From Effrenium voratum (taxonomy: Eukaryota; Sar; Dinophyceae; Suessiales; Symbiodiniaceae), in NCBI GenBank assembly GCA_963377175.1, contig CAUJNA010001224.1, positions 1,425,001 through 1,489,000 of the forward strand: a DNA stretch of 64,000 nucleotides, read 5' to 3'. Numbering within the stretch: the first letter of the stretch is position 1; every line of letters starts with the position of its first letter. Position numbers and translations under genes: made by a program. Below are positions 5,730-47,500 of the stretch, piece by piece. Under the pieces are notes generated by a model. It was not told where the DNA came from. It saw nothing but the letters and a program-made list of their open reading frames with translations, and searched no databases.

Positions 5730-6185
5730 CGGAGTTGCTCGGCTCGGCGGTTCCGCGGTTCCGCGCTGGAGCCCAGGTGTTTACGGGGCGCGCGCATACA
5801 CAGGAAGTGAATCGAACATCATCCTGTTCGAAGACATGTTGGGAGAGGACGCAAATTGTTGCGGGGCCCAATGTTTGCATTCTCGGGGTGTCAGACGCAG
5901 CGAGCACTGGCTCCTTTAAACTTACCAATGTGTGTAATGTGTCCGAAGCCGGCCACACACTTCAAGCTGCATGAGTCCCCTCCAAGGATCGTATTGTCGG
6001 AAACACGCCATGGTAATGCACAAATTGGTAGCCATTGCCTTGACATCGCTTGCAGCCTTTCACTTCAACAGAACGCTTCAGCTAGCTGATCTCGACGTAA
6101 CAGGACAAAGAACTGAGTAAGAAGGGGCATACAGTAAAGCAACTGTGGCGACCTTCAGGGGCATACTTGCTGCCGAACTGCGAGC

Positions 6186-9484: not shown

Positions 9485-12400
9485 CTGAGAGGCGAGGCCG
9501 CTGCCACGCTGGGGTGCTCCCAGATCATCTGGGGAGAGAATGGGGCCCCAAGCAAAAAACTACCAGGGAATGTTCTGCCGGTCATCTTCCCCATGCTTCT
9601 TGCTGTGTGGAGGAAGGAAAAGAGCAGAGAGAACATCCTTCGGTCGGGTGGCCTTGGGCCGTATCGCAGGTTCTGAGCTTGCAGAGTATAGTCCCCTGAT
9701 ATTCAATACGATTGCGGCGCCCATCATAAGATTGGTGCAACCCGGGCTAAGGCAGCAAACAAGGAAATTGGACCCCGCGATCATGTTGAAATCAAAGGCT
9801 TCAGCAAGGAACTCGGTAGCGACAGGGACTCCTCAAAGAGGATATGCGTGGTAGTCGCCAACAACCATCAGAAGCGTCGTGACAGCCCTGAAAAGCCCGG
9901 TGACCGGCAAGGGCATCTTCCTGCCGACCAGTCAAGGTGTAAGTCTCGGACAAACAAGGGAAGACATGCGTGCTGCGCATGAGACATCTGAGATAGCCGT
10001 CCCTTCAACCCAGAACACACCCAGAAATGCCATTCCGATTGCTAGCTAACATGATAAGATGCTTGCCACGGGCAGTCACATTCTGTCATGTGCCAGGATT
10101 AAATGATCTGAGATCCACTTTCGCAACAAGCAAGAGACCATACGCGGAGAAACGAGACCATTTTCCCTTGTTGACGGCTTCATGGGGGTGCTTGACTCGC
10201 GCGTCGTGTCGATGTAACCGGCCCTGCGAAAAGCAAGCGCGCAGCGCGTGTTACTTCGCCAGGCTAGAGCCCGAGTCCAGAGACAGTCAAGAGTGGGAAT
10301 CCTGCCAGGCGTTTACGTAGAAACATCACTGGACACCCGCTCTTGACACATGTCTTCAGTTCCTATAACCGGACTTCCTGGTGAAGTCCACGGAAAAAGA
10401 TGATGTCAACGGTTGCCTTGCTCCTTTTGGCCGAGCATGCCACCCGTTGCGAGAAAATGTCGCCGGCCGCCGGCGGTCCATGACGCCGCGATGCAGCTCT
10501 TGCCCCGTGAGTCCAAATGCTCCCAAGTGGCCCCAAGCCGGCCGTTTGCGCAAGAGAAACTATCCTTCTCGAGTTTGGGGTGACTGTTAATGTGAATCAT
10601 GTCATCAACGTGACTTTCGTAAATTGATCCTGTTGCCATTCAGGGGAGTAGGGAAGGGGAAGGGAGCCAATGAAAGAGAATCGTTCAGTGATCACTGGAC
10701 TCACAGGTGTGCCCAGCCAGCCAATCGCCAGCTCAGGCCCAAAAGAGCAGGCTGCATGCGCGTGCGAGTCTGCAAGTCTGCGAATCGCTGCGCCACCATC
10801 TGGCGTGCCTGAATTGTGCAAGCCGACTCACCCAACGTAGACTTGGGAAAGTATGCAATGAATTGTAGAACCCATGTTCCCGGCTCGCACAATTCGAGGC
10901 CAATTTGCTGTACCACTTACACCTTCAGCAAGCCGTGGCCGTTGTTGATCGCTGCAAAGTACGCCGCGAAGACCAGCGAGACGATAGCCTGGCTTGAACC
11001 AAATGGAGTGAGCTGCCATCCAGCACCCCCAACGAACAACCCTGGGAAAAAGCAGTTGCTGAGGTGTGCTGGAATACTGCAAAGCCGTGTTGAAGTTCAA
11101 CAAAGACAGCAATACCTGAGCGTCTTGTGCAGCAGAACAAACGTGAACATGACAAAAGAAAAACACCGAATATCCATGACAGCAATTCGGCTTGTGAAAA
11201 ACGTGGGTGCAAGGACAACCACATCATGCGGAAAGAACTGCCAGCAACATTTGCACGAAGCACTGCCTCATTAAACACTGCCGCTTCTCTTGCAGAGTTT
11301 GTTCCTATAAACTCAGGTGCAAAGAAGTTCTAGGAGCCGCGTGCTTAAAAAGTAAACCGCCCATACACGGACTCCGAGGGAATCGGCTTCGACTGAGCCG
11401 AGTCCTGCAGCTTCATCACGATGTTCAGGGCCGGGCCGGAGGTGTCCTGGAGCCGAGGCCGCGCCAAAAACGGAAACAGCTTACAAGGACGTCCTTGGTG
11501 AAGCACCAGGTCCTCCAGTAGAGAGCTTAGAGCAAGTTGGTGCCCGATTTTGTTCTGTGGTCTATGTTAGTAGGGGACTTTTCCCCAAAAAAGGAGGAAA
11601 AGGGAACTACTGGGGGGCCTAGACCATATTGCCACATCCGATGCTCCCATGGTTTCCAGCACACAGTGCAGAAACTGGTTGCCAATGGTACGCAAACACA
11701 CATGGCACGTGCTCACACAGTTGTACATATTGCTATGTGACTAATAGACCTTTCCCTTCCATGTTGCAACACACCCGTGTCAACAACAACACATCATGTT
11801 GAAGCAGCGTGAAATATGGCTGTTCCCTCGTAAAACAGTCGGCATGACATATTGTAAAGTCATATATAATCATATCCATGGCATCGCTGCCACACCAATG
11901 CAACTCCTTCACATGATGGCCGGTTGAATATGTGATTCCTACATCGCGGCATGGTCTCTCCTGCTGCTTGCGAGCAGAACAACTCCATCATGGTCGGCAA
12001 CATGGTGTGTATCTTCCAAGCTCACACATACCGTTAATAATACATAAAACTATTGTACAATAGTGTCTACTGTCTTGCTTGAAGGAAACATGAAACCTAT
12101 ACCACAGCCTCTGCAGCCCCCAAAGCCGGCGTCCCTCGACCCTTCTGAAATAACGAGACGAGACCATGACTTCTGCCTCTCATTTCACTCGGCTTCCAGC
12201 CATAGCCCTCCCCAAAAGGGTCCAAGTAACCTTTGAGAATGGCGTTTGAGCTCTCTTTTTTATGATTATTTTTATTCAACGTACATCCTTGAAAGGTTGC
12301 TTGGACCCTTAGGGCTCCCTTTCTGCTCCACCCGTGCCCAATCCCTTACTCAACAAAGAACTCTTAATGAGTCTTATCCCCGCCTGTTTTTTGGTTTTCT

Positions 12401-12925
12401 TTCAATGGCCCATGTTGGAAAAGTGGGCAGGACGCCTTAAAATGACCATAGTTCTTTAAGGCGTTGGAGTCCAAGTACTATGGCCATGGTTCTGTCCAAG
12501 TTTCCATAGTTCTTGGAAACATTGGAAAGCCGTGCTCCCCGTGGCTTCAAGGCCTTTTTCAACCCGACCGCGAGCCCCAGCCACCGAAAAAAGAGCGGGG
12601 AGTCCTTGAAGGGGTCCCCGACAGTGTCGCCCTGCACCGCGGCATCGTGCGCCTCCTTGGCCTTGGGAGCCGCAGCGATCTCCTGGCGCGGGCGCGAAAC
12701 GGACATCTGTTGGGCGGGTTCCGCCCCCAGCCAACAAGTGTGCTACCAAACAGGGCTTTTGGCGCAGGGTTTGGATCAAAATGCAGAGGTGCGACCAATC
12801 AACAGGGTTCCTCCATTTCTGTTTTGGTCTCACATTGTGAATAATGGTTCTAAGATGGGTAATTCATGGATTCTTAGAGGAACCAGCAACGAACCGAGAA
12901 CCCTCCACCAAAAGAAGATGGCGCC

Positions 12926-12986
<61 letters not shown>

Positions 12987-15900
12987 TCCATGTCTTTTGT
13001 TCTTCAGGTTGAGGGCCGAAAACTTATGCAAAGGGGCCAAACAAAAACTGGAAGACATAATTGCGTTGAGGAAACTAAGTGGCTGGTAGGAATGACCACT
13101 GAGATCATGAGCGTCAAACAATCATCATGATCCGTGCGTGCGTGGGTGTGTGCGTGTGCATGTGCCAGGTTGGGTGCTTTGTAGCTCCTTCTAAGATTCA
13201 AAGTGCAGTTTGGAAAGGGACCTGGAACTGGAAAAGTGTCCTTTAACTAGTTGGAATACAACTTCCTTTTATGAAAGAAAAGCCAAACGTTGTGCGCTTC
13301 CGTGAATGTGTTTGTGCGTTTGTGTCTTTGAGTCTTTGCGCGTGCATGGGTGTGTGTCTGTGTGTCTGTGTCTGTGTGTCTGTGTGTCTGTGTGTCTGTG
13401 TGTCTGTGTGTCTGTGTGTCTGTGTCTGCATCTGTATCTGTGTCTTGGTGCGCGTGCATGTGTAGGTTGAAGCACATATTTTGCTGTGCATCTCTCTGCC
13501 ACACATGGCACCTAGATCACGGTGTTCAATACAGTTAACAAAGAGCTGCTGAGGTACAACCATTGTTCAGTGCTTCGCAAGGCCGGGCGCATCCGGGTGG
13601 AAAGTCAAGGCCTGAGTTTGTTAAATTGGCTGACTCTCTAACAACAAGCTCACCCTGTCAGCAACATATGCCACTATAAGACATTTGAAACTACAAAACA
13701 TAACATGAATGATCAACAAAGTCAGAACCAGCACACAACATGACATACATGTAGGGTGAAATATCTGGTCCAATAAATATTTCACCCAGCTTCATTGAGA
13801 TGTTGTCGGATTCAGTTGCCATGTAAGACTGCCTCCGATATCTGACGAAATTACATCGGCATTGCTAAGTTGCTGCTAAGTTCGTAGAACCTACCAACTT
13901 CAAAACCACGCCGAACAACGCGGTACCTCAAACAAGACACTCCCGAATGAGATCGCGCACCATATCAAGATGACGTCCCGTCCTCGGGAGTCTTAGGATT
14001 CTTGGTATAGCGCAGCTCTGCATCGTCGGAGAAGCCGTTCTTGATGTACCTCGCAGGCCGCTGCAGGTACAAAGCCGCTTTCGTTAGGGACCCCAAAGTG
14101 AATTTACGTTGACGGTCCTCCTCCAAAGCTCTAAGGACCTATGCTAGGCGTACGCTCGGCCTATCTCCCATGGATAGCCCAGTTCTCGCAAACGGGTCCG
14201 TGTTCCCGTGCGTGTGTTTGTGGTGTGCTTGTGTGTTCGTGTGTTCGTGTGTTTGTGTGTTTGCGTGTTTGTGCGTTTGTGTGCGTGGTTGTGAGTTTGT
14301 GTGTTTGTGTGCTTGCGCAATCACAGTCACCGACTTCCAACAAGGATGCTGTCTGCCATCAACGACAAAACTATGCTGGGCATCTAGTTGTCAAAACAGG
14401 CACTCTGTGTTCTTGGCGATTCCGATCGGGCTAGCAACTCTGGACAGTGACAGGAAAAGGCAGCCAAGTGCGATTAGATTCTCAGAGCAAGCAACAGCTC
14501 CAACGCAGGGTAATTGACACACTGACAATATATGGTTAGCAAGAAACTGCCAAATTCTTAATCAAAAACAAAATCAACCACCATTCGACGGGTGCCGCCT
14601 TTGCTTGGACAAGTCTGCACCACGCCAAGCAAAAACTCAAGCACAACATCCCATCTTGCTTAGTCAAAAAAAACACGCTAGCAGCTCGAGTACCCTTGAT
14701 TAAGGACTCGGCGGATTATGAATCATGAGTCAACACCACACACGTATTTCGTTCACCAACGCCGCATGCTTGGTTGCGACTGGAGTTTGTTCGGGGCGGC
14801 TTCAGGAGTATTTCAGAACCAACAATTCCAAGCAAGTCCTGGCACATATGCATCAGCTGGACTGGAGCCGACGGAGCCGACCCATTGCTTCCAGGCACTT
14901 CTTGCAGTTGTCCCAAGCTCCGCCGGAGTTGGACATGGAGATGGCCAGCTGCACTGAGGAGCCCAGGGATCCCGTGAGCAGCCCGAACACGGCCTATCGG
15001 AATCGAGACACCGGACAGCCAAAAACCCCTGTTGAAAGTGGCCTGCAAGGGAGAAAAAGGATCCGTATAATATATATATATATATTTATATATTGTACAT
15101 ACTATATATGTATATATATAAGATAATGTATCCGTGGCATGAAAACAAGCATGTTTCTGTATGAACCCAAACCTCATTGTGCACCCGTTGTACCAAACAC
15201 TTAAAGGCATACAACCCTTGATATCAGCGTCGGAGAACCGTGCTAAAGAAAATGCTCCACAAAATGGAACGATTCCACCACCCAAAAAGGAACCAGCCCT
15301 CATTGGTTGACCAGGGGCCCATTCCATATTGTTTTGTTCTTGTTTTTCGTGTGTGTTTTTAATGCTTCACAACCGCGGCATTTTTTAATATATTATCTCT
15401 TGCATCATGCAACGAAGCCTTCACTGTTCGCCCGGACCGCCTGCGGGGACTCCCCCGTTAGTGTCGCGCACGGAAACTCTGACTCTGGCCCCGAAGCCCG
15501 CCCGCGCCAAGCGCCAAGTGAAGCGTCCCTTCAGCAAGGATTCGACCGAGCGATCCGACGACTCCCACCTGCACGCCGAAGAAGGTACCGGCCAACAAGG
15601 GGGAGAGGATCACCAGGCACGCCGGAGCCACCATCTCACGCAGCGAGGCCTTGAAAGCGAGCGGATCTGCACTGCGCAACTCCAAAGCCTGAAATGGCCA
15701 TGGGTCAAAAGCCCGTACCCCCAGTGAACATCCCAATCCCCACTAAAATAGGTTCTAAAATGGGTGGTGCACCGAAAACCCCAAAATGGGATCCCATTGG
15801 TTTTGACACCCACAGCCAAATACAAATTGGATCTCGAGGTAAAGGGCCTTCATGGAGAGCTTCTTTTACCCGGTGAGCTAGACGTAAGCAGATGGATTAT

Positions 15901-18900
15901 GAGAGTCCCCTGCAAGTTTTAGTAAACTAAATGTCTTCTGGCCTGAGCTGAATAAAGACAAAAAGAAAAGTTCATGACATCGACACCTCATGCGCTGAGA
16001 ACGGCTTTGCAATGCTGAACTGGCAATTGTTCATGTTTTTATTTTTATTTTTGCATTTTGCATTTTTCCAGTTTTTCGCGGGCATTTGTTGCTCGATTTA
16101 TGTCGCTGAGGTTGACTTTAGAGAAGTTCATTGTTTGGGTTTCAAGTTGTTTTTCGGTGGGAAGGGGGGGGGGCAGGACGGGACAATAATAATGCGCCTG
16201 TGTGCCCATTGTTGCGAAAGGCTTGATTCCTGCAGCATCGTTTTTCGCTGGCTGCTCGCCTTCGGAGAGTCGGAACGGAATTATCTTTTTTCATCTCGTT
16301 TGTTGTTTGAGGGCTCGGTGGCTTGCCCCGCCCCACCCCCCCTCCTCCCAAGCCCATCAATGATTGACGTTGTTGCGTTTGCTTGCGCGGGTTCGGTGGC
16401 TTGCCCCGCCCGGCCCCCTTAAACAAATCCTTTCGCTGGTTTTGGCGGCATGCCCCATCCAGCAATAGGGTGCCCAGCTCCCCCTTCCTCCAAAGTGAAG
16501 CCCGCCAACGATTGAAGTTGTTGCATGTGCTTGTGCTTGCGGGTTCGGTGGCTTGCCCCGCCCGGCCCCTACGCCTTCTGCAAGCAAGAGGGAAGGCGTC
16601 TCAGGGCAAAAGAGTCTCACAGGAAAGCTGTGAGCTGACGAACGGACATGCGTGATGCGACGCAAGAGCCGCCCAAGTCGTATGTTTCTTGCGGATCATA
16701 TTTTTCAAGCGGATAGATGTGTTTTTGCAGAGCAGATATGCTTGTTGCGGTGTGCGCTTGCGGGTTCGGTGGCTTGCCCCGCCCGGCGCCCACAATGACT
16801 TACGCTGGTTTCGGTGGCATGCCCCATCCAGCAGTAAGGATTCAGAAGGGGCGCTTCTGAAACCGCCCTTTTCCGGAAGCGTTCTCAGAAAGGCTTTCGT
16901 GTGTAAGGGCGGCTCGAAAAACAAGACTTTCGTGGGAAGTCTGCCTGCAAGTCGTGGGAAGTCTGCCTGCAAGTCTTGTTTGGTTTTTTGAAATTTCGGC
17001 TCTGACATGTTGAACTGCCCGTAGAAGGGAAATAGCGTGAGAAAGTCTACCAATGGCACGGGGGCCTGCTCGCAAAAAAGGCAGCGCAGTGAAGCAGCTT
17101 TGCTCCTACAAGAAGTGCAGAGCCAAGAAGGACGTGAAGAACAAGTGCCACACAGCTCGCCGTGAGGAAGTGGATCTTGAGCAATGTCGGCCCTTAAGAA
17201 GCCACTGTCAGACTGTAAAGTTCTGTGGTCAAACGCATTTAGACGCCTGCCTATCAAAAAAGAAAAAAGCTCCACCCGTTGGAAGGGAAGCTCTGGACAC
17301 GCAGCAACTGGCCAGTCTTTTTCAAACCTTGGTGGAGCTAGGCCGTGCCTGGGCAGCCGTCATGGGGTTATGCTAGCTTTTTCTGGGAGAGCGCGCTGAC
17401 TGCGTGCGGCAGCTGAGAACATCTTGGCTGCGCAACTTGGGCCCTCAAGAAGCACGCACTCCGGCCGTTTGCATCCCTGAAGGGGTGAACAAAAAAACAA
17501 CCTCCCGTGAAGTTCCTCTTCACAGTGGCCTGGCTACCTTGCTTCATAACTGGATGTTTCGTGAACCACTCCGGCACGCCCAGCAGCACAGCGAGCTTGT
17601 GCACCTTTGTGGCTATGTCGGCGCGCTCCTCCCCCGCAGTCATGAAGCGCTGTTGTTCAGCCAAAGGCCGTAGATGGAAGATGCTGAAAGTCTGCAAGGC
17701 CTCGAAGCACGGGAACTCCGCCGACACAACGTCTTTGGCCAAAGCGGTCCATGCCTTGAAGCGCTGCAAGCAGGACGCAACTGTCTGAGCCATCTGATGC
17801 TGCGGCGCACCGCCGAGCCGCCGGGGCTGGCGATCCACATACAGCACCCGCTGCGTTGACAGCAGCTGCAGCACGTGCTGCGTGAAGCCGGTCCTCAGGC
17901 AGCCCCCCTGATCAAAAAGCATGGTGATCCGCGTCGTGAACCGGCCCAACTCCGCACACAGTTGGCTGTTGTCTAGCGTCTCGCTGTCCAGAAAACGCAC
18001 CAGCTGAAGATTTTCTTCTCCAGCGTCAGCTAGCATGCCCAAAAGCACCAAGTTCTCCTCCGTGGCAAGCATCAGAAACTCCTTTGCTGCAGCGCCTACC
18101 CTTTCTTGTTTTCTTTCATCATGTAGGGACTGCGCTGTTGATAGAACAGCTTCCATTGTCAGGCACAACTTGGCAAAGGGGGTCGCCCAGGTGTCGAAGC
18201 GGTGTTTGGCGGCGCTGAACTTGGACGAGTTCTGCTTCCACATCGGGTTGTACTGCGTGGCGCGCACCTCCTGCGCATACTTCACCCGCACAACGTCGCT
18301 GTGGTGGATCAGCTGCGCGATGCTGCCTTTGTTCATCACTACCTTTTTGACCAACGTGTCCAGCACAGGGTCACACTTCCAAGTGCGACTCACTATCCTG
18401 GCAGAAGGGCCAGTACACTCGAAGAACATGCGGTGAAAATCGCATGGCCACAAACAAAAAAAGGGTCCTGCGGGCTGCGTGGGGCTTGTCTTTGTTTACA
18501 AACTTCAGGTTCGGAAAGACTTGCAGCGTGCCCGTGTCCATGTCTGCCAAATCGCAGTATAGCTGAGCAAAAGCTTCGTGCTCCGACGACAAGAGTTGTC
18601 CCGCCAGCTGCTCGTCGGCTGCTGCGTCGGCGTTGAACACCTCAACGCGCCCAAGCCACTGCTGAAACGCAACTGCGTCCAGCTGGGGACAAGCCACCTG
18701 AGCTGGCACAGTTGGCTTCAGGCAGTCCTTGAATTCTTCTGCCAGCAAAAGGGGTGGCCAAATCATGAAGCAAATGCACAACAGCCGTGGCAACTCCGAC
18801 CGCAGAGAAGTCATGAAGCTTCCGTGCGCCCAGAAGCATGTGCTGAGGACGCAAATCCTCTGCGCACGTTTGCCCTCGCAAGACAAGGATCGTCTTTGAG

Positions 18901-21900
18901 CAGTCCGAGTGCACAGTGACGCAGGAGGCAGCGTTGAGCGTTTGCCGCGTGCGAGCCCGCAGCGACTCGGCCAAGCAAAACTTGAGCTTCTGGGCTCGGC
19001 GGCGAAGGATCTTGCCGCCGGACCAGGCAATCCCATCATCACCGCCAACTTTTCCCTTGCGTGTAGCTCGCAGAACTGCGATGAACTCTTCGAGAGATGG
19101 GGCCATCAGGCGCAGTCGGATGTCTTCATTTGATGCTGCGGCCTGGTGCCTTTTGGTTTTCTCATGGTCTCGGAAGTGGCTGACCTGCAATGAAGCAATG
19201 GTTCGAAACTCCGCTGACACATGCCCAGCAGCTTTGCAGGCAGCACAGCTGACGGAGAAGTCGCCTGTGTCCCACTGCGCAGCCTCCAGCCACGGGAACT
19301 GCTCGGTCCACCGCCTGCCAAAGCGGGCCCATGCGCTCTGCGCGGACATTCCGGGCAGCTTGGGCCAGAGCTCTGTCCAAAGAGCGCTTGCGGAAAAAAC
19401 TTAAGTTTACGCACAAAGTTCCTGTCCAGAGGGTCTCTGGAATCCGAAGGTCGACTCAACAAGCCGCAGTGCTGTGGACTGTCCAAAGAACTAGAAACGT
19501 TCGAACACCGGGAATTTTGCGTTCCCCGAAATCCAAGAATTGTAGTCCACTCGACAGTCCGCAGCGCTGTGGTTTGTGGAGACAACTTATGGAAACCGGA
19601 GACCCTCTGGACAAATGGGGTCTGTGGAAAAAAACTTAAGTTTTTTTCCGCGGACCAAGCTGATCGGGCAAGCGTACGTGTCATGTGGGAAACTGGATGG
19701 ACGTGACCGGACTGTCTCTCGGCAACCCTTGATCCTCAGCACTTCATGACGCCGGACGTCCTGATTCAATGTCCTTGGCTGGCCGCATGTTTTAAGCACC
19801 GTTCGATCTGCGTTTGACATCTCTCTGCAGCAGCAGCGGGGGCACATCATGGTTACCAAACTCACAAACTTACGCGGCAGAGCGCGCAAAAGCCCAGCGT
19901 TGCGGCTCAGTTGGGCTCCCTGTCCGTGGGGTCGTCCTCCTCTTCCTCAGCTGGGTCTTCAGTGGCCGGCGGCGCGGCAGCCTTAGCCTTGACTCGTCTG
20001 CCCTGCTTGGGGGCTGGTCCGGCGCCTGGAGCAGGCGGCGCAGCTTTCAGCATGTTCTCCACCAGGTCGACCAGCGCCGAGCCACTGTTCGGCCCCCCGT
20101 TCTTGGCAGGAGGAGGCACTGGGCCAAGCTGCCCAGCCTTGCTTTTGGCTTTGCTCACCGGCGGCGCTTTTCCTCCGGCCTTGCCCCTCGTCAAGTTGCT
20201 GTCACCGCTGTCCGCCTGCGTCGTGGTTGGCAGGCACGGCGGGACCACTTGGTTTCAGACTGGTTTGAAAAATTAAAGCAGCAGAATAAACACTGCGTCT
20301 GTGCATAAAACAAAGCACTGGCCTGCAGAGCGTCGCGCAGCTCTGCAGCGTAATACTGACTGCTTGGGCTCTGCATGTGTGCCCACAAGCGGCCGAAGAG
20401 GTACTGCCGCACGACATTCATGTGAAGACTAGTCTGGCATTACCTGAGAAAGGCTTTTTCTCCATAAGGGCGGCCTCGGCAGCGTACCCGGGGCCCACCG
20501 TGAAGTCAATGACACATTGCACATTGTGCGAATGAATGAACTCTGCCCACAATTGCCATGGCTGCGAATGGAAAGACAGGGGCTCCAGGATGTCCGGCTT
20601 CCTCACCAAGAACTCAGACCCCGCAGGCGCGGCCCCGCCAACCTTGCAGCTTCCTTTGCACTTGTCAGACCACACATCCTTCTTGACCTTCCATGGGATC
20701 ATGTGAGATTGCTCTTTTGTCAGTGGCGGGCTTACCACCGGCCCCAACGTATTGCTTCGGTTGGTGCCAGAAAAATGCTTCCGGTTGCGGACGGGCATGT
20801 CAAGGGAATCCTTGGTGACGCAATAGAATTGCTCCATCAAGTTGAAATTGAAACCCCGCACTTTCTCGTACCGCTGGAAGTAGCTGCTCTCTTCCATCTG
20901 AACGTGCAGAACCCGCACCTGCTTGTTGAGCGCGCGCCCGGTGGCGTCCATGAAGCCACCCAGCAATGCTTTTGGCGTCAGACCTGCGGCAGACAAATGT
21001 TGAAACCGCCTGCAGTTTAATCCATGAATGTGAAATGCTGTTGGGCTCTCTGTTTGAATGTGGCAATACTACGTCAAGAATGAACTGTTGGCGGCAGGGC
21101 TGTTTTCACGCACGGTTTCCGAGTCAGGTGGATGCATTGCTGGCCGCGCAGGCGGGAATAGGTATGAATTAAAATGCAACAAGCATGTGCACAGCCAACA
21201 TTCCGCCGGCCTGGGCACTAAATTGCAACCATCGATGAACCACTAAGAAGTCGTCCATCGGCTGCCACTGCGAGCCCTGTGCGGGCAAGAAAGGAGGCAA
21301 GGAGCCGCCGAAACACTTCTAGCTAGGCTAACCAACGCAAAAGCCACTGCGCGACGCAGTTTTGCAGCTGCCTAGCAACACCGTCGTCAAGAATGTCCAG
21401 GTCCGGCCTCGGACTCGCTGGCGGCCCGTTGGCATTCAATCACGATCTCGCCGCTCTGCGGCACAGGGTCCGCCGAATCAGGCTGGGGCAAGCCACCAGA
21501 GCCTACTTTGCCTCCCGCAAGTGGATTCCCAGTGGCCTCTGGCTGAAGGCCAACGCCGTCGCTGCTGCGGCTGCCTTGCTCGTCAGTCTGACCCTTGCCC
21601 GCCGCGCTGCCGCCTTTGAGGCCCTTCCCGCCAATGGGCACAACCACGCCCATGAAGAAACCTACGATGACGCCAGCGACGAGCGCAATCGACATGGCTG
21701 CAGCTTTCACGCCAGTGATGGGGCAAGCCACCGAAACACGGCCGCGCCTGCTAACTTGTCTAAGAGCCGCCAAGCGAACACAGCGCGTCTTGACTTGCCA
21801 AGCACGGATGGTTTTGCAAGCGGGCCGCAGTGACCAAACCTTGGAAGCAATAGAAAACAACTGCCTTCTGAGCTGTCGCCATTGAGTCTGCGTAACCGCA

Positions 21901-33900: not shown

Positions 33901-36900
33901 TGGAGCATGGGGGCTGCAATCCGGCTTGAGCAGGGATACGTACGCACAATTTGATCAGAATGGGAGCTCAATTCTGCAAGACCTGCGCACGTCAAAAGCA
34001 TGACGCGAACTTCACGGATGCCAAAAATCCCCATGCCAAAGTAAGAAGTGCGAATTCACTCAACGGGAATGCAACGTGCAGCCCTTTGCTTCGAATCCCT
34101 AGGGCCCCTTTGCTTCGAAGCGGCCCTGGATGATGTTCACCGCCGTGCCGAACTTGCACGCGGCGGCCAGCTCGCGGGTGGGGATGTAGGAGTGGGAAGT
34201 GAAGTACTCTGTGACCAGACCGATAATCAGGCCACCCACGCATCCCATGGTCGCCTCAGAATAGCTTAGGAACCAAGGCTTAGAAAGGAAAGTTGTTGAC
34301 AAATTGGCTCAACTGGGGATGTTAAATCGAGCAAGGCTTGCCTGAGCCACGGTTGTCAAATGTTACTCACCTGCAATGGACCCTTGAGAGACAGCGAGAG
34401 AGCTTGATGCTTCTGGGTGGATTTCATCCAAGATCTCAGAATGAGACATTTGCATCCCGCAGAAATCTGCATCCCGCAGAAATTGAAAAAGAACAGAACA
34501 CGGTGCTCAAGTGGCACACTTCGCTAACCTCACCAAAACAAGCATCGCCAACGTCCCAAGCGCAGCCAACCAGCAGGAAACATCGCCTCCCAAAGGAGCC
34601 AAGTTCCCACATGCCGAAACATGGAACGCCAAACAGCCCCATCGCCACCAAACCCACCTGAAACCTTGGCAACGTCCGTCCAACCTCGAACCCGCGTCAC
34701 ACCTGCCAAAAAAAAACCGCGCCGGCGAGGCGCGCACACGAAGGCCTTGAAGGGGCTGCCATGGATCTTGGCCGGGACTCCCTTCTCCGTAAGGCGAACA
34801 CCCTCCAGGCGGAAGTCTGCGGGCAGCAGGTGCACCGCCAGCAAATAGATCACCGGCCTCGGGCGGTGTCTTTCGAGACGTGGGGACCAGGGCTCCCTGC
34901 CCGGTTCCCCCCCGAGCCATGAGGGGTTCGAACAAAATTTAGGGCAGCGGTGACTTACACTGCCTTCATGCCACAGGCATGGCCCTTACAGCAAGTTCAC
35001 GATCTCTTCAACGGCAGCTGAGGCCGGAGGTTTCCCTGGCAGCACGTGTTCCCGAAATCTTAGGTGACTTGTGTGGCGTCTGTCCCCAAACGTAGCGACA
35101 CATGTGCTGGACATCTGGTCGGCATTGCGTCAACCTCACCCACCTTGACAAGTATTGAGGTTTACAAGGCGGCGGACACACGCAACAACGGGTGGGGTAT
35201 GCTCTCAATATCAAACCCACGTCATGCAAACAACTCGGAAGGCAAGGGGCAGCATAATCAAGGCTGTCAGAACCATCTGCACCTTCAGCACCCACTCGAT
35301 GTCGCCCTCCACCTTCACCTGGGTAAAGCGTCAAGCTGGTCAATAGCTTCCATGTACAGAAAGGATCAAGACAACAAGTATTCAAAAGGCTGCAATGTAC
35401 GCAATGCTGTGGGGATATCCATTTAATACCTCCTCGCACCTTCGAAGTGAACATTCACGACAGCCTTACTCAAGCGTTCCAAAGCTTTCTGCTGCATCAT
35501 CCAAACCGCGCACCGTTTCAATAGGGTACCAAACACACTAGCCTTGCCAAGCATCGAACGCACATGGCACCCTCCACGGTTTGGGATACTAAACCGACAC
35601 ACGTTTTGCATGGCGGGTGGACACGCATCACACGAAGTCGAGAAAACCCCTAGCAACATGCTGGGTGCTATGGGCCTTGCCATGGGTGCTCATTGGAAAA
35701 CAGTGGCATAGGGGGCCATTGCATGACCGCCGCGCAAGTAAAACCCGAGCCAGGGCGCTGGGCGCACGTTGGTGGCCACAAAGCCGCAAAGGATGCAGAT
35801 CACGATGCCGGCGGCCGAGATGGCCACGGGGAAAAGCATGGCATCCCAGCCGGCCACGGACAAGGTGTTGTCGGAGCCCTGAGGGCTTTCCCCTTTGAAC
35901 ATCCCACCAAGGGAACCTCACGTTAAATAGCCCCAAAAGGTGATGGGTTAAACCTGCCAAAGGGGAAATAGGGACGCGACTGTTTTTAACTCGGTTGTGC
36001 CGCCAACCAACATTGACGGGGGGTGCGGGGTTTGGTCATCACTGTGCTGCGTGTTGTTTCTGCGGGGATTTTGTCCTCGCTGTGTCATCGATCTGCAGGC
36101 TTGCTGCCCCAACAATCACGAAATGGGTGTTTGTTGAATTGCCCAAATCATGCATCACTTCTCCGAAGTCATGGGAACTCCGAATTGACAAACCGTTAGT
36201 TGACAAAAAACCAGGGGGGGTGTCGCATGTTCGACGGGTTCCTTCACTCTACTTGATCCAAGCCGTCAACTGAATCCAGGGTCATGGGCGTTGCCTCCAC
36301 GGCTGCCGCTGCAATCACCAGGGCCGCGCAGGTGCTCTCGGCGAAGGAGCCGAAAAGGTCGGCGCCCATGCCCGCGATGTCCCCCACGTTGTCGCCCACC
36401 TCAACCGGCGAAAACACCTCCCTCCAGTCGAACGCGTGACGCCGAAATATGGGGGCATGCAACTGCCTTCCCAACCGTTCCTAAACAGGCCTAACCCCAC
36501 CCTAAGCCCTAAGCTTTGTCCACAGTGTGACTTCGTTGCAGCGCGCGTCCGAGGCGCGTTGTCGGCGATGGTGGCGGGGTTGTTGGGATCATCCTCATCC
36601 AGGCCAGCAACAACCTGACAGGTCCATGTGGCAGCGGGCAGAGCCGGGTAACCTTGCACCATCATAAACTGTTGCACAAGGCAGGCAAGCAACCCTTGGA
36701 AAGCAGTTCTTGAAAGAGAAGAAAGCAGGGTCTTGCTCATGCATCCATCGCGCATGTTTAAGGAAGACAAATGGATGCCGTGTGTCCAGCCGCAAGTGCG
36801 AGAAGTCTCAACCCTATGACATGTTGAAAGAGGAAACACACCTGCAAGTCATACTCCTCGCATGGGTCATCTTGATTCGCCGAGAATGGTCGGTCACAAT

Positions 36901-39900
36901 CACATTGAGAAAAGGGTTCCCAAGGCATCTTGCCTCATATTCTCAAACTTTCTGCCGCGTGTGAGGTCCAACGAACTGTTCCCTTCCAACTACATGGTTG
37001 GTTGAATGTGTTGGACATTCGAGGAAACGAGTCGGTTGCTGCTTGCTGTAAGGTGCTGGAAACAACAGGAGCTGGAGAGCTGTCACCTTTGAAACAATCC
37101 CATGGTGCCCCAATTTGACAAATTGCATTGAAGCGTGAAGAAGGCAGGTTGTGCGGATAGAGCAAATAGGCGCAACAACTTTGTGGCCCTTTGCGTCCAC
37201 TGGAGAGACTCAAATCCAGCAACACGCCTCGGGGGAACCCTAACCTTTTCCCTGTCAAACCCAAAGGAAATGGATGTGCACTTGGTTCCGATCCCTGGCC
37301 GCAAGGCTGTTCCCTTCCAGGCCTTGCCCACCAGGTCAGCACCCACATCCGCCGCCTATAAAGAGCATTGCTTTGCATGCCACATGCAAAGTGCCAATGT
37401 GCATGCGCATCTTGTTACCACATGCTACCAAGAGTTGATGCTGTTGGACGGGTTGATGAGCAAACACTTTACACTCATGAGTTGCCCCCCAACAAAGCGG
37501 GTGTAACGTCTACTTATGCTTGACAGCTTTTCAGGAAGGATTTGCTTCCCATAAGATTGAGGGCAATTGGACAATTTGCGACTGCAAGTATGATGCTCAA
37601 CTAATCCAACCTGGGTATGCTCAACGCCTTGTCCCTGAAAAGGAGACCCCTGGACAAAGCACACACGTCCATTGAACCAGGAAAGCCACTCTCCCCCTGC
37701 TAAGTCTAAACACAAACCCCACGTACATCTCCCCCTGTTTTCATGAGTCGGAAAAACCAAAAACCAAAACACACATAACAAACCATCTAACCCCCTGTTT
37801 CAATGGGTCGAACAACTTTGATTGAAAAAAATGATGAAACATAACAAACCATCTAACCCCCTGATTTTTTAATGGGTCGTTAAAAAAGAAAGAAAGAAAG
37901 AAAAACATAACAAACCATGTCCATCTCCCAACCACGTCCTTGGTGTAGATACCGCCGCCCACGCGGCCGAACATCGCCACGGTGGAGCCGCCCAAGCCGT
38001 AGCCCGCCGCGCAGTCGAACAAGATCTCCCAGTCCTCCGCCTCCGGGTAGACCTCGAGGGTGGACCACGGGGCTTGGTTGGTTCATGGGATGGGCTGCAG
38101 CGACCGCCCGTACCACCCCCTTTTGTTTGTTGGGAGCGGGAAAGACCCAAACAAAAGAATGGGGAGGGCAAGGAAAGGCATGAAGGCTTCATGATGTTTC
38201 GAAGTTGGTCAAGTGGAAGGGAAAAGGAAGACAACCCCGATTCCAAGCTTTGAGAGCCCATGAAAACAGTCACAGGCTGCCCCTCTCTTATGGAAGTTGA
38301 GGAAAACACCCTATCACAAGCTGGGTTTTGATTGATCGCATCTTGGGGTCATTTGAGCCACCACCACTTGATAGAAAGGGCGCGTATCAGCATGTCATTC
38401 ATTGTGAGCTAAACTAAGTGACAGCCAACCAAAGTCTCATGGTTACAAACAAAGGCTCACGGGTCGTCGGGCCATGGTCGTCATCCATGTCATGTTGTCC
38501 CATGTTGTCCTCGTGTTCTGCCTTGAGCCTCTCCCAATGATCCCAAACTTTGCTGGGCCCCTAACCTCTGGGTCCCTTAAAGTCACATCCTCAAATGTAT
38601 CCTCTACATGTGCTTTAAAGGGCAATCACCCCCCCCAACAAAACTAGAGGACGATTGGCCCGAAAGCATTTTTCCACAGGTGCTCATCCAGCCGCGGAGA
38701 CACCTTTTTACATCGCTGCGGCGAGCGTGTCTGCGCGCGGCGATGCTCAGTGTGTATGGTCACATGAGAGCTCCATCCCGCGATTTCTCACGAAAGTGGT
38801 CTGCGCAAGCTGCCTTGTTCCAGGCTGCTGCGCGCAAGTTGCTCTTTGGAAGTTGCTGCGCGCAAGTGCTCTGTGAAAGTTGCTCTGCGCAAGTGCTCTG
38901 AGCAAGTTGCTCTGCGCAAGCGCTCTGCGCCAGTTGCTCCGTGCAAGCGCTTTGCGCATGTGCTCTGTGCAAGTTGGTCTGTGCAAGTTGCTCTGCGCAA
39001 GTGCTTTGTGCAATTGCTCTGTGCAAGTTGCTCTGCGCAAGTTGCTCTGCGCAAGTGACTCTGCGCAAGTTGCTCTGCGCAAGTGCTGCCGGAGCTGCGG
39101 GGGTGTGCTCCGCGTACTACGTTTGTACTTAAAAGTTGCGATTCTCCAGCCGGAGCTGCGGGGGTGTGCTCCGCGTACTACGTTTGTACTTAAAAGTTGC
39201 GATTTTCCAGCCTGAGCTGCGGGAGCACGCTCCGCATACTACGTCTGTACTTAAAATTGCGATTTTCCACCCGGAGCTGCAGGAGCACGCTCCGCGTACT
39301 ACGTTTGTACTTAAAAGTTGCGATTTTCAAGCCGGAGCTGCGGGGGTGTGCTCCGCGTACTACGTTTGTACTTAAAAGTTGCGATTTTCCAGCCTGAGCT
39401 GCGGGAGCACGCTCCGCACACTACGTCTGTACTTAAAAGTTACGATTTTCAGCCGGAGCTGCAGGAGCACGCTCCGCGTACTACGTTTGTACTTAAAAGC
39501 TGCGATTTTCAAGCCGGAGCTGCCGCGGACCAGGGGGGAATCGAACCCGCGACCGCGGGATTGCGAAAGCAGGCGCGCAAACCACGAGACAACTTCCAAA
39601 GGCCGTTTCGCGAGCAAGAATATTGCACGGCGCCACAGCGAGAGCGCTTCGACACGCACAATCTCCGCAGAGGGTTCGCCGAGACTAAGACAAATTCGCA
39701 CGGCGCCACAGCGAGAGCGCTTCGACGCGCACGATCTCCGCAGAGGGTCGCGCGCGGCCAGCAGAAATCGTAAAAAGTCCTCAGTTTTTGAACCTCGACC
39801 ACGCGAATCTCCGCAGAGCAGAAATCGCGCGCGCAGACGCGCAGAAATCGTAAAAAGTCCTCAGTTTTTGAACCTCGACCACGCGAATCTCCGCAGAGGG

Positions 39901-41543
39901 TCGCGCGCGCACCGCAGAAATCGTAAAAAGTCCTCAGTTTTTGAACCTCGACCACGCGAATCTCCGCAGAGGGTCGCGCGCGCCCGCAGAAATCGTAAAA
40001 AGTCCTCAGTTTTTGAACCTCGACCACGCGAATCTCCGCAGAGGGTCGCGCGCGCACCGCAGAAATCGTAAAAAGTCCTCAGTTTTTGAACCTCGACCAC
40101 GCGAATCTCCGCAGAGGGTCGCGCGCGCACCGCAGAAATCGTAAAAAGTCCTCAGTTTTTGAACCTCGACCACGCGAATCTCCGCAGAGGGTCGCAATCC
40201 CGAGCGACGATCAAACTCCCGCCCCGGCGCCTTAGAAACCTAAACTAACTTACATAGCTGCTAACGCCGAAGCTCTAAGCTCTACTCTAACTTGGCTCTA
40301 TGTAACTTGGCTCTATGTAACTTGGCTCTATGTAACTTGGCTCTATGTAACTTGGCTCTATGTAACTTGGCTCTATGTAACTTGGCTCTATGTAACTTGG
40401 CTCTACCTAACCTTGGCTCTATGTAACTTGGCTCTATGTAACTTGGCTCTATGTAACTTGGCTCTATGTAACTTGGCTCTATGTAACTTGGCTCTATGTA
40501 GGTTGGCTCTACCTAACCTTGGCTCTATGTAACTTGGCTCTATGTAACTTGTCCAAGGGCTCCGCACGGAAGAACCCTTCGCGATGCTTTCGGGAAAAAC
40601 ATTAAAAATATAAATAAAAATGAGACGCCTACATGTTCACTTTAAGGGACCAAACATAAACTCCACCTCCCTCTCCGGGCCTTGCGGTAGAAAGACAGCA
40701 GCGCCCAAAGCACCAAGACGCCCAGCGAGCACAGGGCGTAGCCCATGACGCTGCCGCCGCGGAAGGCCACGTTGAAGCCCTAAAAGGCTGGGAGGAATGG
40801 GGTGGTTGGGTTCAAGGGAAATCAGCACCCTTTCACCAGTTGGTGAGGTCAATGTAAGATAAGTCGCCCTTTGACCCAAAGAAAAGGAGCCCCAAATGCA
40901 GCCCCCAAACCATAGGGCAGTCTTGGGCTTCGGCCCCCAACCCCACCTCTTTGTAGCCCTTGTGGGCGCACTCCAAGGTGGTGCGGGCGTTGGAGAAGGT
41001 GGCGATCATCATGCCGAGGTAGCCGCACAGCATGGAGGTGAATGCACCTGTCACATGTGCGACAGCAAACAAAAGCAAGGCACCAAGCAAAAGATCTCCA
41101 TATCTCGTTGTGTTCTTAGTTGTCCTTCAAACACATTGCAAAAGAAGGGTCTACGCTTGCAAATGTTGTTCCCGTGTACTCTCTCTCTCTGTGATGTGTA
41201 TGTGTGTGTGTGCTGTGTGCTTGTGTGTGCGTGTGTCTGTGTGTGTTGTGTGTGCGTATGCGTGTTTGTGTGGTAAGTAAGGGTGGGTGTTGTGTGCATG
41301 CGCGTGTGCGTTGTGCGGGCGCGTGCGCATTGTGCGGGTGCAAGTGCACGTGCGTGCTTGCGTTCATGCTTGCGTGCCTGCCTGCATGTGTGCGTGTGTG
41401 GTGTCCAACTAGGATTAAACACTCCACCCGGAATCAAGACCAACGGGTGGCCCAAAAATAAAGCACATGCACCTGGAATAAAGACAAGCACCCGCCACCC
41501 GCGCAAAAAATAACAAAACAAACAACCAATAAAAAGGAAACGT

Positions 41544-41578
<35 letters not shown>

Positions 41579-44500
41579 AAGGAGAGGAGAGATAGCCAAG
41601 CCAACACCTTGTCCTTGCATCTTTGGCACCTTGTTCCTCAAATCCAAAATTGTTAGCTTTACCAAACCCATGTTTTTACATGTCTCTCGTTCAAAACCTG
41701 CCCACAATCAAACCCGCACATTATGTCAGGGGCTCCGAAATTAAGTCTTGTTGCCTGGCCCCCTGAAAAATACAACCTGCTCAATGCAATGGCCTCTTAG
41801 CTGTCAAGTAATTAGACAGCCTACAATGCTTCATGCTGTGTTGTTAGAATTTGGGCCTGCTTCTCAAATCCAACAACCAAAATTGTCAGCTTTACCAAAC
41901 CCATCCTTCATGAGAATATTGGTGTTTCGATAGCATAAATCCGTACCGTGTCCAAGAGCGCATAGCTGTCTTGAATCATGAAGTGAAACAGTGTGTGAAT
42001 AAAATATGAACACTTTACTTCGCTGGCCTACATATACCCATAGACTGCCATGTTCCGTGTGTGGACCTCTCAAGCTTTTGCTCTCCATGAGAAGCCAACG
42101 CCTGAGCACGCATGAAGCAGGCCCCGATATCGGCAGGAAACCGCGCCTGTCAAGAAGGCGCCAGCCGTCAATTCGCCCTGCAAGGGGCTCTTGGTGCCCC
42201 AAGACACCAGGAAGTAGATGACCAGCGAGAAGACCAGGCCTACCCATTGCAGGGTGATTGCGGAAAGAAGGGACCTGGAGATTTGTTGGCTGGGTTTTCA
42301 GTATGAGGGAACATCGGTAGAAGAAACAGAGTCTCGCAGGCTGTCAGATCAAGCGTCTTGCACCGCAAATACGCTTGCAAACTGCGGATCCCTTGGCCTC
42401 TTGGAAGCTGAAGAAGACAAACTAATATGTTTGCAGGGCAGAAAAGGTGTGAGCAGTTGATGAGCTTTTCATGCAAATGGCAGGGCGGTATTCAACGTTG
42501 CTCACTTTCAGAATGGCTGCAGGCAGGTTCAAGGATCGCATTTTCCACTGAGCATGGGTGTGAGGACTGCCAGCTTCCTGGATGCACAATGGATAAGTTC
42601 TGAATGACGGCTGAGGCGGATATGGAAACAACGATCCCCACTAAGTATTCGCTTCTTGGTAGAACGAGTGGAAATGTGAAAACATTCGGGACCTCCTCTT
42701 CGGTGGAGAGTGGGAGACAAGGGGACGCTACTGGGGAACTGCGGCCCTTTCGACGCGGGCACAACAAGTGGAGGTATCTGTCAATGGTTGAAAAAGGGCG
42801 GGTGAGTTGGGTAAGCCTTTGTTTGGCAGAGGTTTCAGGCCAGGAGAACATATAACGTGTGGAAGTAGACAAGCAGTCTTATCACGAGCCACCCTTTCTT
42901 ATTGTCAGCAAACCATGTCAAGACATGTTTGCACCTTCAATCCTCTTGAGAACACACCATGTAACAAAAAGCCGCCTGGGGAACTGACCCCGTTTAGCGG
43001 CTTTGCGGTGGATCCCCCAAAAAGAAGAACTGCCCCGCCCCATGAATCAACCTGTTCATTGCTTCCCGAGTCGCAGAAGGCGGTGCAAATGGCATACTCC
43101 ACCTTCAGGAACTGCACGGCTCCGTCCATGATCCTGGGTCGACCAAAGCGAAACTGATTGATAGCTTGCATAGGGAAACTAAATGGTTAAAGCACGGTCA
43201 GAAGCAACTTTGAAGCAATTGAAACCAGGTTACTGGCGCTAGCTTCTTCTTTGTGGGCACGGCAAAATCTTACCTGAAAGATATTGATCTCCAAACGGTG
43301 AGCTGTGGTTTCTGCCAGGGTGAACAATGGGTGAAGCTACAAGCTAAGGATCTTGGCGTAGATCTCAGGGACCAGCTTCTCCGGGGAGTCCTCCCCGGTC
43401 AGCGGCTTCGAGAGGTCCTGGAAATAATTGTCAGCCCTCCACGTGAGTGTTTCTGTTGATACCCGTTACAGAAGGGAAAGCCACGATTCTAGGTGGCGCC
43501 TTTTGGACAAATAGATGGCGGGAAATGGAATAAACCCATCTAAACCAGGGCCCTCTATTTTTGAAGCAAACCAACCAAAAGGGACACCTATGGCCACGAT
43601 GTTTTGGGTGGCTGCCCCGATTCTGGTACACCTGGGGAATTAGGGAGAAACCTTTAGGCAAGCTGAGAACCAGAATTGCGAGGCCCCCTTCCTTGGGCAT
43701 AAACCAAGCATCCAGAAAGAAGGTTGGGGGTACTGAGCTTTGACGCGTTCATAGCCCTAGGCAGCCGCGTGCCTGTGGAACGGCAGTCTCTTGCTCAAGA
43801 AAACCTGGTGCTGCTCCGCCTGAAGGCTGTGGCTATACCAAAGACTTCGGCATGCGTCAAAAGTGTTCTGTGCGCTGCGTCTTTTGCTGGTGTGCGTAGA
43901 GCCAGGCGCAGATGCAGCGCCATATCGCAGGAAAACAAGTTGGAGGCCATGCCCGGCATGTGAGCCATGCGGCCATGGGTGAAAACCCTGGTTAGCCCTT
44001 AGTGAACATCCCAATCCCAACTAAAATAGACTAAAATGGGTGGTGTACCTACCCCAACATGATGCCAATGGTTTTGACCCACAGCCATGTGAGCCACGGT
44101 TGGTGCCTGATTTCCCAAAAGCGATTTAGTGTCTGCACACAATGTCACCCTTTTGCTACAGTACCTCGGTGAATGTTTCATATCTACGGATCGGAAGGTA
44201 CATTATGCCGTGGCGTTTGGTCTGCCATGCCTCCCTAAGAGCCTTCAGCCCTTGCTTCGAATCCTGGCCATTGGGTGTCAGGGAGATCTTCTTGATGATC
44301 AAAAACTGGGCGAAGGCCGCAATCAAGCCCACGATGCACGAGGGCACGATGATCATGTCCACGTGCGACATCGTGCTGAAATCGGCGCGCAAGAGGCGCG
44401 GGGCAAGCTGTCGACGTCACTGAGCCAAAATTGCTGCGGGACGACTGAAAATAGTTGACTGGATCCCGACATTCCAGAGAACATTTGACTGCACTGCAGC

Positions 44501-47500
44501 AGGCAGGTCAAACTAAATAGTTCAGCGAAGAAAAGCCAGGTGCCGTCAACAACTTGGCATTGTTTCTGTGGGCCATTGTACGTCCTAATCCTGTGAGTCA
44601 ACATTTCTGCAGCCAGCACCTCGCTCTACAACACTATGCGGCAACGAGACTCAAGCAGCCATATGAAATGAAACCCGGTCAACGCAGAATCCAAATCCGC
44701 TCTGCGCTTCCCAACCAATATCCTACCCACTGATCAATCTGCCAAGGCCAAGCCCCCAGCCTGCGCAATACTCCATGATGTTGACCAGCGCCTCGCCAGC
44801 GCCGGCCCCTGCGACGCTGCGTGGGAGCCGAAGGCGCCCAACAGACGCGGGGAGGCGCACAACTTTGGCCCCTAGCCTGCAGTGCGAACATGAAGAAGCA
44901 ACGTGTCCCTGCACCGCAAAATGTGGTTGTAACATTCTAGCCTTGAGGGGCTGATCGGAAAACCAAAGATAAGCACTTGACAGGTACTCAGCCAACTCTC
45001 GGGGTGGAATCGGTGGCGTCTCCAATAGGCGCAACAGGCTATCCTGGTGATGCCGAAGATTAAGATGACTTGGTTTGGGTTCAGGTTCAGCTTCGCTTCA
45101 TCGGCCGGCAACGCGCCTGAATGAAGAAAGGACACTTGGTGTCTCACCTCGGCGCAAAAGGACAGGGCACCTTGCCGCGGGCAGTGGCTTGCAACACTCA
45201 GTCATCTCATTCTGCCTCCAGGGCCGGAACAAACCCAGCTCCTTGGGAGTCGGCTGCGGAAGTTTCCGAGACCGTTCTATGGGAAGAAGCCAGAAGCTGA
45301 TTGGCTACCCGCACCCAAGGTTGTGCGATGTGATGCCCATCCGAGGCCAGCGCCACATTGGGATGTTTCAACCTTCGGCAGAAGCAGTTCAGTTGACGTT
45401 CCGCTTGCGTTTCGCAACACCGGCCCCACTGGCCTCTGATAAGAAGCTAAGGATACCAGTTGGCCAAAACTCATAAAGATGGCAAGGCAAACAGCCAAGC
45501 AATAATTAAGCTACTCCCTGAATCAAGGTTGGGCTCCATCCACATCGTACAGCTCTTGAACGATGTCCGGAAACGTGTATACTGTATAAACCAAGCAAGC
45601 ATAGTTGGCACTCATGCCCTGAATGGGTCTTCAACGAGACAGCGAGGCTTGTGCCTGCCCCAAGTACATGCGCTCGTCAACAAGGCCCAACAAACAGTGT
45701 TTCCTCGATGATTGCTCTTGGCCGTTGAATAAATGCCCGACAATAGAACAGCAAAGAACAAACAACAACAACGGAAGACCACGAACGACCGGTGCCGCCC
45801 CCCAATCTGCAAGATCGTTAAGAGTTGGGGAACCATCAAATCCCAAACATGACTAGAGTTAGGCCCAGTTGTAGAATGTATATCTTATTGTTTGCTTCAC
45901 ATAGAGTCCCTGGTAAAATGTAAAACGTATCCTAAGTCTACCCCAGCAAATACCCAGTCATATAGTCCGTTGCTTATGTGGCCAGATTGACGAACCGGAC
46001 CAGCGAGCTTTAGGCCGCTCCTCTTCAACACCTCCACCTCCTGCAGGGCCAAAGCACGATCTTTGTCCTGGCCAGCTGACGAAAAATCATGGGATCAAGT
46101 ACTTCCACAACATAAAGTGAGGCTTCGCTCAGCTGATGATTTTGGGAACAATATCTTACTAACGTGTGGCGAACTCATGTTTATTGCCCACAGCTCTGCA
46201 TTGGACTGCTTTCGGCTGAAACCTGCATGTTGGCGTCTTCAGTGTCCTCCTCAGTTGATTTGATGATTGAATCTGACTGGATTGGCAGCAGCTACGGTGG
46301 ATTCCCCACATATTGCAAGTGAATCAACCACATTGGTAGATGGCCATGACTTGCGGGGTTACTCTTGTTCCCCTTGGCAAAACCCAGTGCATGGCATAAT
46401 AGAGCTCTTCGCGGCGCACAAATCCGCTTCCCAAAGAACTTAGTGCGGGGATTTCGAGGATGCGCTGCCTTCAATCGAATGCCGAACCAGCATAGTTGGA
46501 AGGTGACTCGATATCTCCATGCCCAGGCCCACGTATGTCATTCAACATCGCCCTGGCATAACGCTCCTACCTGGCCATGTCAGAGTGATTGGCGACTCAG
46601 CGCCTTGGCTTGCTCAACAAACAACTTGGATGGCAGCCGTCAATTCGTCGAGCCCCCTGTTCCAAATAGACGAACATCCATCACAGCACTGCTGGAGCCA
46701 ATGCTCAAGCTTCATTCGATGTAGTACGGTTGGAGGCCCGTGCTCGGATGGGATTTAAGTTTCCCTTTGATTTAGTATGGCCGGGTTTGGGTTCCCATTG
46801 TATTTAGTATTTCCAGACTTTTCTTTGGGGGGAGTAGCTTTGTGGGAATGATGAGGGTCAGATTGCTTGAGCAGGTCACGTGAGTCTGGGTATTGTGTAG
46901 TTTGTTAGTCGTTGTTCGAATAGTGTAGTCTTGGAAAGCTTGGTAAGGGGCTGGGACAAATCACAACCATATTATAGGATTGCATTTTATCAGCTTTGAG
47001 CCTTGGTGGTTGGAAGGGGGCAAATCTATGTCATAGTCTGTGTGTGCTTTATAGTGGGTACAACAACAACTAATCTTGGGGATACGTTTGTACGTATGGT
47101 AGCATTGACCCTCATTGACCCTGCTGTTCTGTTTGCAACAGGCCAAGCTGATACATGGGTTCCTCCCTTGCAGTTTGTAAGTGGCATTCAATTACACACT
47201 GCAATGCAAAGTGCAAACACATCCCGTTTGCCTGAGCGACCGACCCTCACAATCCCAACACCATTAACAGTCGCATGTGGAAATGGAGCACACCCAAGGA
47301 AGTTGAAATGTGCACGTGGCCAATTTGCTACGGATCTGGAAGAATGGCTATAAGAGATGCATTCAAGTGGTTGCCATGGATCAAAGGTCCGCTGCCAGAT
47401 AGTCCCGCCCGAATCCGCGCAGATCGTCCTTGAGGTGGTCAAGGAAAACAACTTTGGCCACAGCCTGGCGACGATGCGACGCGCAGTCAGCCGAGGTACA

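Follow-up and report, generated by a model that had tools for sequence, protein, structure and literature searches.

Genes that lie within an intron of a host gene on the same strand occur in animals and plants. Among dinoflagellates, the closest described system is that of Polarella glacialis, for two isolates of which the accessible part of the report gives 4,898 (8.4%) and 3,359 (6.5%) predicted genes nested in introns, with up to 18 and 24 nested genes per host, respectively, support from full-length transcripts, and the example of 15 nested genes in three introns of an Ala-tRNA ligase gene (PMC7245778). Here we describe a locus of Effrenium voratum that is contained in part in a stretch of 64,000 nucleotides (hereafter the window; positions 1,425,001 to 1,489,000 of contig CAUJNA010001224.1, or C1224, 2,416,125 bp, in assembly GCA_963377175.1). 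From the order in which the kinase exons are observed, their strand, phase and identity, together with the inner genes between them and a relict spliced leader before one of these, the pyrophosphatase gene, we consider it probable (about 0.82, as judged from the sequence) that the locus is one NEK kinase gene of ~122 kb with four same-strand inner genes in four of its introns, whose own message would be made by cis-splicing while the inner genes give rise to messages of their own.

The locus resembles the Polarella cases in being from the Suessiales, in having genes inside introns and in having several genes nested over several introns of one host, and differs in that the host is a NEK kinase gene, the four inner genes are unrelated, multi-exon and placed one per intron, and two of them sit at the same place in the gene models of relatives; in addition, the available text of PMC7245778 backs nesting there with transcripts, whereas here it is predicted from sequence. 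Since nested genes had already been reported in Polarella, the kind of arrangement is known, and what is added here is the locus with the four genes inside it, as well as the two places common to relatives. To call it a departure from known nesting, as we had considered, would be too strong given Polarella hosts with as many as 24 nested genes. In comparison with the same-strand nested genes of animals and plants, the likeness lies in an inner gene within a host intron, and the difference in the addition of a spliced leader that is expected here and in the presence of four unrelated inner genes in one host. Literature searches on nested genes yielded, in the portions of the publications that were accessible, no other dinoflagellate report that we recognised and none of this locus, and the word "nested" is absent from the main text of the E. 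voratum genome paper (PMC11114475) and of a 2024 review (PMC11453091).

The exons of the kinase were located by aligning five full-length orthologous kinases (P0001, P0003, P0004, P0005, and P0006) to 244 kb of sequence, 15 kb of them N, with bases -4999 to 0 left out (coordinates are those of the window, negative values lying leftward of base 1). The spliced aligner, written for this analysis, is restricted to AG acceptors and to GT, GC, or GA donors; the splice dinucleotides are thus given by construction, and phase and identity are not. The P0001 alignment consisted of 44 pieces, and we relied on the 28 whose boundaries were common to at least three of the five orthologues (two of these are only three residues long), together with the less certain border at -35816 (2/5 orthologues) and the last kinase exon. 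The exons form a single ordered path on the minus strand from 51189 to approximately -70762; within the window they run, in order and in phase, down to 44761 and resume from 9484 to 6611 (Table 1). With P0001 the path scored 1582, as opposed to 611 on the plus strand, 640 with the reversed protein, and 598, 607, and 618 with three shuffled proteins. Identity to P0001 was at least 80% in 12 of the first 18 agreed exons.

In the joined kinase, residues 19-278 match PF00069 (E = 3.7e-55) and the G-loop, VAK, HRD, DFG, and APE motifs of a kinase domain are retained; with NEK1, NEK7, and NEK2 as its closest solved structures, it belongs to the NEK family. A single exon searched against the PDB gave a weak kinase signal (best E = 0.013). 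When the exons on the two sides of the hinge intron were joined as one query, P0001 to P0003 covered 100% of it at 73% identity, and thus both halves fit one protein family. The sequence-only reading, which had proposed that a complete pyrophosphatase gene lies on the same strand inside the hinge intron, was borne out by these spliced alignments, as was the junction it described, EYCA G|GT GGG GAC, which completes a glycine (EYCA-G-GDL) across a GC donor and an AG acceptor in phase 1. Its list of kinase exons, of which the alignments recovered the N-lobe and GDL-APE members, was missing one (VRHQVSFLHS), and the locus extends further than it had stated: the pyrophosphatase nesting stands, but the kinase runs past GTPYYMSPE and three more nested genes were found that lie partly or wholly outside the window. 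The kinase is not completed inside the window, since past APE its exons are located to the left of the gene for GARS (phosphoribosylglycinamide synthetase). The next one, VCKGEPYRDKSDMWSLG (VCKGEPYRDKSDMWSLGCVLYE), is at -14233 to -14300, beyond GARS and 20.8 kb left of 6611, with 22/22 residues identical to P0001, and the kinase continues to LLLWLPKHLDGSIDWQAAE (-70386 to -70443) and to a stop near -70762, behind EWRRSAERPS. Upstream of 51189, spliced alignment of the orthologues did not yield the first coding exon, and the N-terminal pieces proposed in that region were dropped as they differed between orthologues.

The four gene-bearing introns of the kinase measure 35.3, 20.8, 8.5, and 17.4 kb, and after subtraction of the inner genes 1.8, 2.3, 3.1, and 4.4 kb, respectively; the remaining kinase introns measured (n = 17) are shorter, with a median length of 769 nt and none longer than 7,783 nt. 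The intron between -18395 and -26179 (-18396 to -26178) was also checked for a fifth nested gene, and was seen by eye to hold instead a reverse-transcriptase-like frame (GAPMGSPASP, LLLRYVDNR).

The pyrophosphatase is complete, as had been claimed, and collinear from an ATG at 44371 through to its stop codon (10919-10917). Its joined protein matches PF03030 (E = 5.6e-221) over positions 22-645 of the 645 in the profile, a near full-length match that identifies a membrane H+-pyrophosphatase, and it is collinear with residues 14 to 760 of Arabidopsis AVP1. The gene begins 389 nt past the hinge exon and ends 1,432 nt ahead of the next kinase exon. The three further genes lie in later kinase introns, again on the strand of the kinase. 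GARS extends from 5765 to -12815 in the intron 6611/-14233, and 10 of its 19 pieces aligned to the public Effrenium voratum protein P0027 are exact, with one more at 30/35. RPS27e (PF01667, E = 4.7e-20, joined protein) occupies -29114 to -34587 in the intron -27287/-35816, and an Orai-like gene (PF07856, E = 2.5e-9, joined protein) occupies -46504 to -59478 in the intron -44572/-61958. The pyrophosphatase, GARS, and Orai-like genes are each bounded by two exons of the one host; for RPS27e the right-hand exon was placed by two of the five orthologues only.

Comparison of gene order in related species, a check suggested with the sequence-only reading, was run on gene models and gave a positive result for two of the inner genes. 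In P0121 (EukProt s896_g22.t1) the kinase tail to SLREV is followed by an Orai-like protein and then by kinase sequence (DAIVTCLL), and in P0122 (EukProt g11997.t1) kinase sequence to FASTAPA is followed by part of RPS27e and then LKLSEAPPPPP; both inner genes thus occupy the same kinase places as in E. voratum, indicating that the nesting of RPS27e and the Orai-like gene is conserved. In their kinase parts, P0121 shares 97% and 94% identity with P0003, and P0122 shares 100% and 95% with P0004, which is named Durusdinium trenchii. Nesting of the pyrophosphatase and GARS was not seen in the gene models of other species. P0003 is a whole kinase (568-aa frame) whose longest contig, at 1857 nt, has the size of a spliced message, suggesting that this relative leaves the Orai-like gene out of its kinase message. 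The Symbiodinium pilosum model P0123 has another inner stretch of ~220 residues at the Orai place, without a Pfam match; as its alignment to the locus was no better than noise (27 pieces, score 262), we did not count it as a shared nested gene. Separately, P0121 had 60 assembly matches listed, of which 59 hit its N-terminal part (residues 85-253; best 49% identity); by eye, this part resembles a mobile recombinase that the gene model has fused to the kinase tail.

We searched the assembly (1,155,904,702 bases, 3,699 contigs) with these proteins; such searches score best candidates only. Four of the 80 matches listed for P0001 read as this kinase (59-88% identity), all on C1224, and the others had 23-57% identity. 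There was no second high-identity copy among these 80, so that the kinase is single-copy as far as searched. One exon of the Orai-like gene was matched, at 86% on C1224, the other 59 of the 60 listed P0121 matches missing that part. The 75 matches listed for P0027 included GARS pieces at 68-91% on C1224 and two on C3410 (48% and 65%). Three long GARS-like open frames on C1, C2223, and C2291 (41-49% identity) have no internal stops, unlike the intron-rich nested GARS, and are either paralogues or foreign DNA.

A possible route of arrival for the pyrophosphatase is suggested by a relict of the dinoflagellate spliced leader (DinoSL), the first base of which (44439) is 68 nt upstream of the ATG and in which TTTTGG is kept. 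This is the only DinoSL match with five or fewer mismatches in the 244 kb, both strands included; 200 shuffled patterns averaged 0.02 matches when up to four mismatches were allowed and 0.37 when up to five were. A relict DinoSL upstream of the start codon marks dinoflagellate retrogenes. According to the accessible portion of PMC6050394, conservation is higher in relicts that lie 50-100 nt ahead of the start codon, TTT(G) is their most conserved motif and a potential promoter, and retrogenes with introns exist. The pyrophosphatase is like the retrogenes in what is available of PMC6050394 and PMC12014239 in the distance of its relict from the start codon, in keeping TTTTGG and in that intron-bearing retrogenes are described there, and differs in lying within the intron of another gene and in the four mismatches of its relict.

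The pyrophosphatase may then have arrived as a retrocopy of a spliced-leader-bearing RNA, with introns kept or gained. The relict would provide the acceptor for trans-splicing (CCGCAG|CAATTTTGG) as well as TTT(G), the motif proposed as a promoter, and the predicted pyrophosphatase mRNA would have DinoSL joined to CAATTTTGGCTCAGTGACG at 44433. The earlier suggestion that a spliced leader may release the inner mRNA thus receives indirect support from the 17/21 relict, and the inner messages in general would be expected to receive a spliced leader. The kinase message would require cis-splicing over 35.3, 20.8, 8.5, and 17.4 kb; the order of genes in the kinase introns, together with the two genes at the same points in relatives, makes it likely that the alga excises introns of 8 to 35 kb to produce the kinase message. 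A primary transcript trans-spliced and polyadenylated inside a kinase intron would presumably be unable to give kinase mRNA as well. A transcript used for an inner message would thereby be lost to the kinase, and the outputs would compete unless they have separate starts. It is feasible, although we think it unlikely, that the locus works as a five-output RNA switch in which one long transcript becomes either the kinase message or a trans-spliced pyrophosphatase, GARS, RPS27e, or Orai-like message; kinase dose would in that case be tied in reverse to the inner genes.

Several observations weigh against a single kinase gene with four nested genes, or against parts of that interpretation. Among the agreed kinase pieces, those at -42903 and -61958 are below half identity, and some C-terminal exons fit weakly. 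The exon at -61958, which follows the Orai-like gene, matches at only 4/11; a good exon follows at -62846, where the Orai-like intron would end if the weak exon were wrong. The right border of the RPS27e intron (-35816) is the least certain, being a short proline-rich exon with 7/10 identity, and RPS27e was also placed on C3043 and C402: the best of its 23 matches comprise two pieces on each of these contigs as well as two on C1224. Eight of the 19 GARS pieces are weak and lie beside or around the bases left out of the comparison. No full-length version of this kinase carrying the name E. voratum was found among the matches listed (the best 120 of 1697, 55 of 55, and the best 120 of 2582). As to the retrocopy, the relict has four mismatches in 21, the pyrophosphatase is rich in introns (although intron-bearing retrogenes have been described, in the accessible part of PMC6050394), and no relict was detected before GARS, RPS27e, or the Orai-like gene in the 244 kb scanned, i.e., only one of the four inner genes has one.

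The public model P0027, listed on a contig of 1,438,410 bp, also counts against a continuous kinase, as it joins the middle kinase block to GARS (MSPE to RGTAEPPSRATP-MADVLVV). It uses the same exons as we do, being exact in 10 of 13 aligned window exons (the other three, at the left edge, are partial or weak), but makes the GDL to APE block part of GARS. That this block is truly the 5' part of a kinase-GARS fusion gene is very improbable, as the product would be half a kinase without an N-lobe, whereas the full-length orthologues go on MSPE-VCKGEPYRDK with that exon on the same strand beyond GARS, and RGTAEPPSRATP reads like an in-phase GARS leader; the join is likely a model error. The same model helps to answer the concern that an assembly error put unrelated sequence into the kinase, since P0027 repeats the kinase-GARS order on a contig of different length, probably from another assembly. 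E. voratum assemblies were scaffolded with transcripts, according to the part of PMC11114475 available, but the window contains no N and two inner genes have the same positions within the kinase in gene models of relatives, which makes such an error the most remote of the explanations we weighed.

Stitching in trans of kinase blocks transcribed separately, with the inner genes ending the transcript between them, would suit blocks that sit as fillers between other genes on one strand, and spliced-leader trans-splicing is described for dinoflagellate mRNAs (accessible text of PMC6050394). We regard it as improbable, as the blocks are collinear on one strand with phases preserved, and cis-splicing explains them without a new step. 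Mobile-looking insertions and the weak C-terminal exons would, in turn, be expected of a decayed kinase gene broken by insertions and replaced by a working copy elsewhere; we give this very little credence, as the catalytic motifs are kept, identity to P0001 is high in most of the early agreed exons, and the assembly matches listed hold no second high-identity copy.

A single kinase gene with four nested genes would mean that, on one strand of this locus, introns of 8.5-35 kb have to be cis-spliced while the four genes inside them are expressed separately. This makes it directly testable whether transcription of dinoflagellate inner genes begins at starts of their own or is shared with long transcripts. 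In addition, automatic gene models in the group fuse hosts and inner genes (P0027, P0121, and P0122), and it is therefore likely that some published protein sets of these algae hold such chimeras.

Table 1. Features of the kinase locus in the window, in order along the minus strand.
Feature	Position	Strand	Support
NEK exon before glycine loop, DSSEPMVPSRILS	51151..51189	-	6/13 to P0001; outside the pieces agreed by at least 3/5 orthologues; moderate to low confidence
NEK exon, glycine loop FLGRGQYGT	50402..50454	-	boundaries same in 5/5 orthologues
NEK exon HLVESTDTPQPEQ (HLVESTD)	48554..48593	-	4/5 orthologues
NEK exon with VAK lysine	47429..47464	-	5/5 orthologues
NEK exon, helix C	46021..46067	-	4/5 orthologues; 15/15 to P0001
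NEK exon RLKHPNV (HPN)	45354..45372	-	4/5 orthologues
NEK exon VRHQVSFLHS, between HPN and hinge	45117..45147	-	3/5 orthologues; 6/10 to P0001
NEK hinge exon, ending EYCA+G, GC donor	44761..44808	-	4/5 orthologues
NEK hinge intron, 35,276 nt, containing the pyrophosphatase gene	9485..44760	-	
Relict spliced leader CCGCAGCAATTTTGGCTCAGT	44419..44439	-	17/21 to DinoSL; predicted trans-splice acceptor AG at 44435-44434
Membrane pyrophosphatase gene, ATG to stop	10917..44371	-	collinear with AVP1; PF03030
NEK exon GGDLRIWLDSLAQAE (GDL)	9439..9484	-	5/5 orthologues; exact to P0027
NEK exon, helix E	8952..9012	-	5/5 orthologues; exact to P0027
NEK exon VHSCRILHRDLKTSN (HRDLKTSN)	8237..8283	-	5/5 orthologues; exact to P0027
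NEK exon MLLDVEHRVVK	7228..7258	-	5/5 orthologues; exact to P0027
NEK exon, DFG to APE (GTPYYMSPE), GC donor	6611..6700	-	5/5 orthologues; exact to P0027
GARS gene, 5' part	1..5765, on to -12815	-	exons 5765-5655, 5191-5144, 4600-4538, 3573-3451, and 1939-1878 exact to P0027

Alignment of the plant protein divided the pyrophosphatase, for which the sequence-only reading had given 26 exons, into 32 pieces. Several of these are weak, and the final piece (10496-10479) was dropped as it lies beyond the stop. The 11.4-kb pyrophosphatase intron 27045/15649 contains an element of ~6.9 kb (16008-22935) with 951-nt inverted terminal repeats that are 99% complementary and with several minus-strand open frames, likely a young transposon, and also a 247-aa open frame with KRPAA repeats (25429-26169, minus strand). 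Repetitive open frames on both strands were observed at 38750-40078, also within a pyrophosphatase intron.

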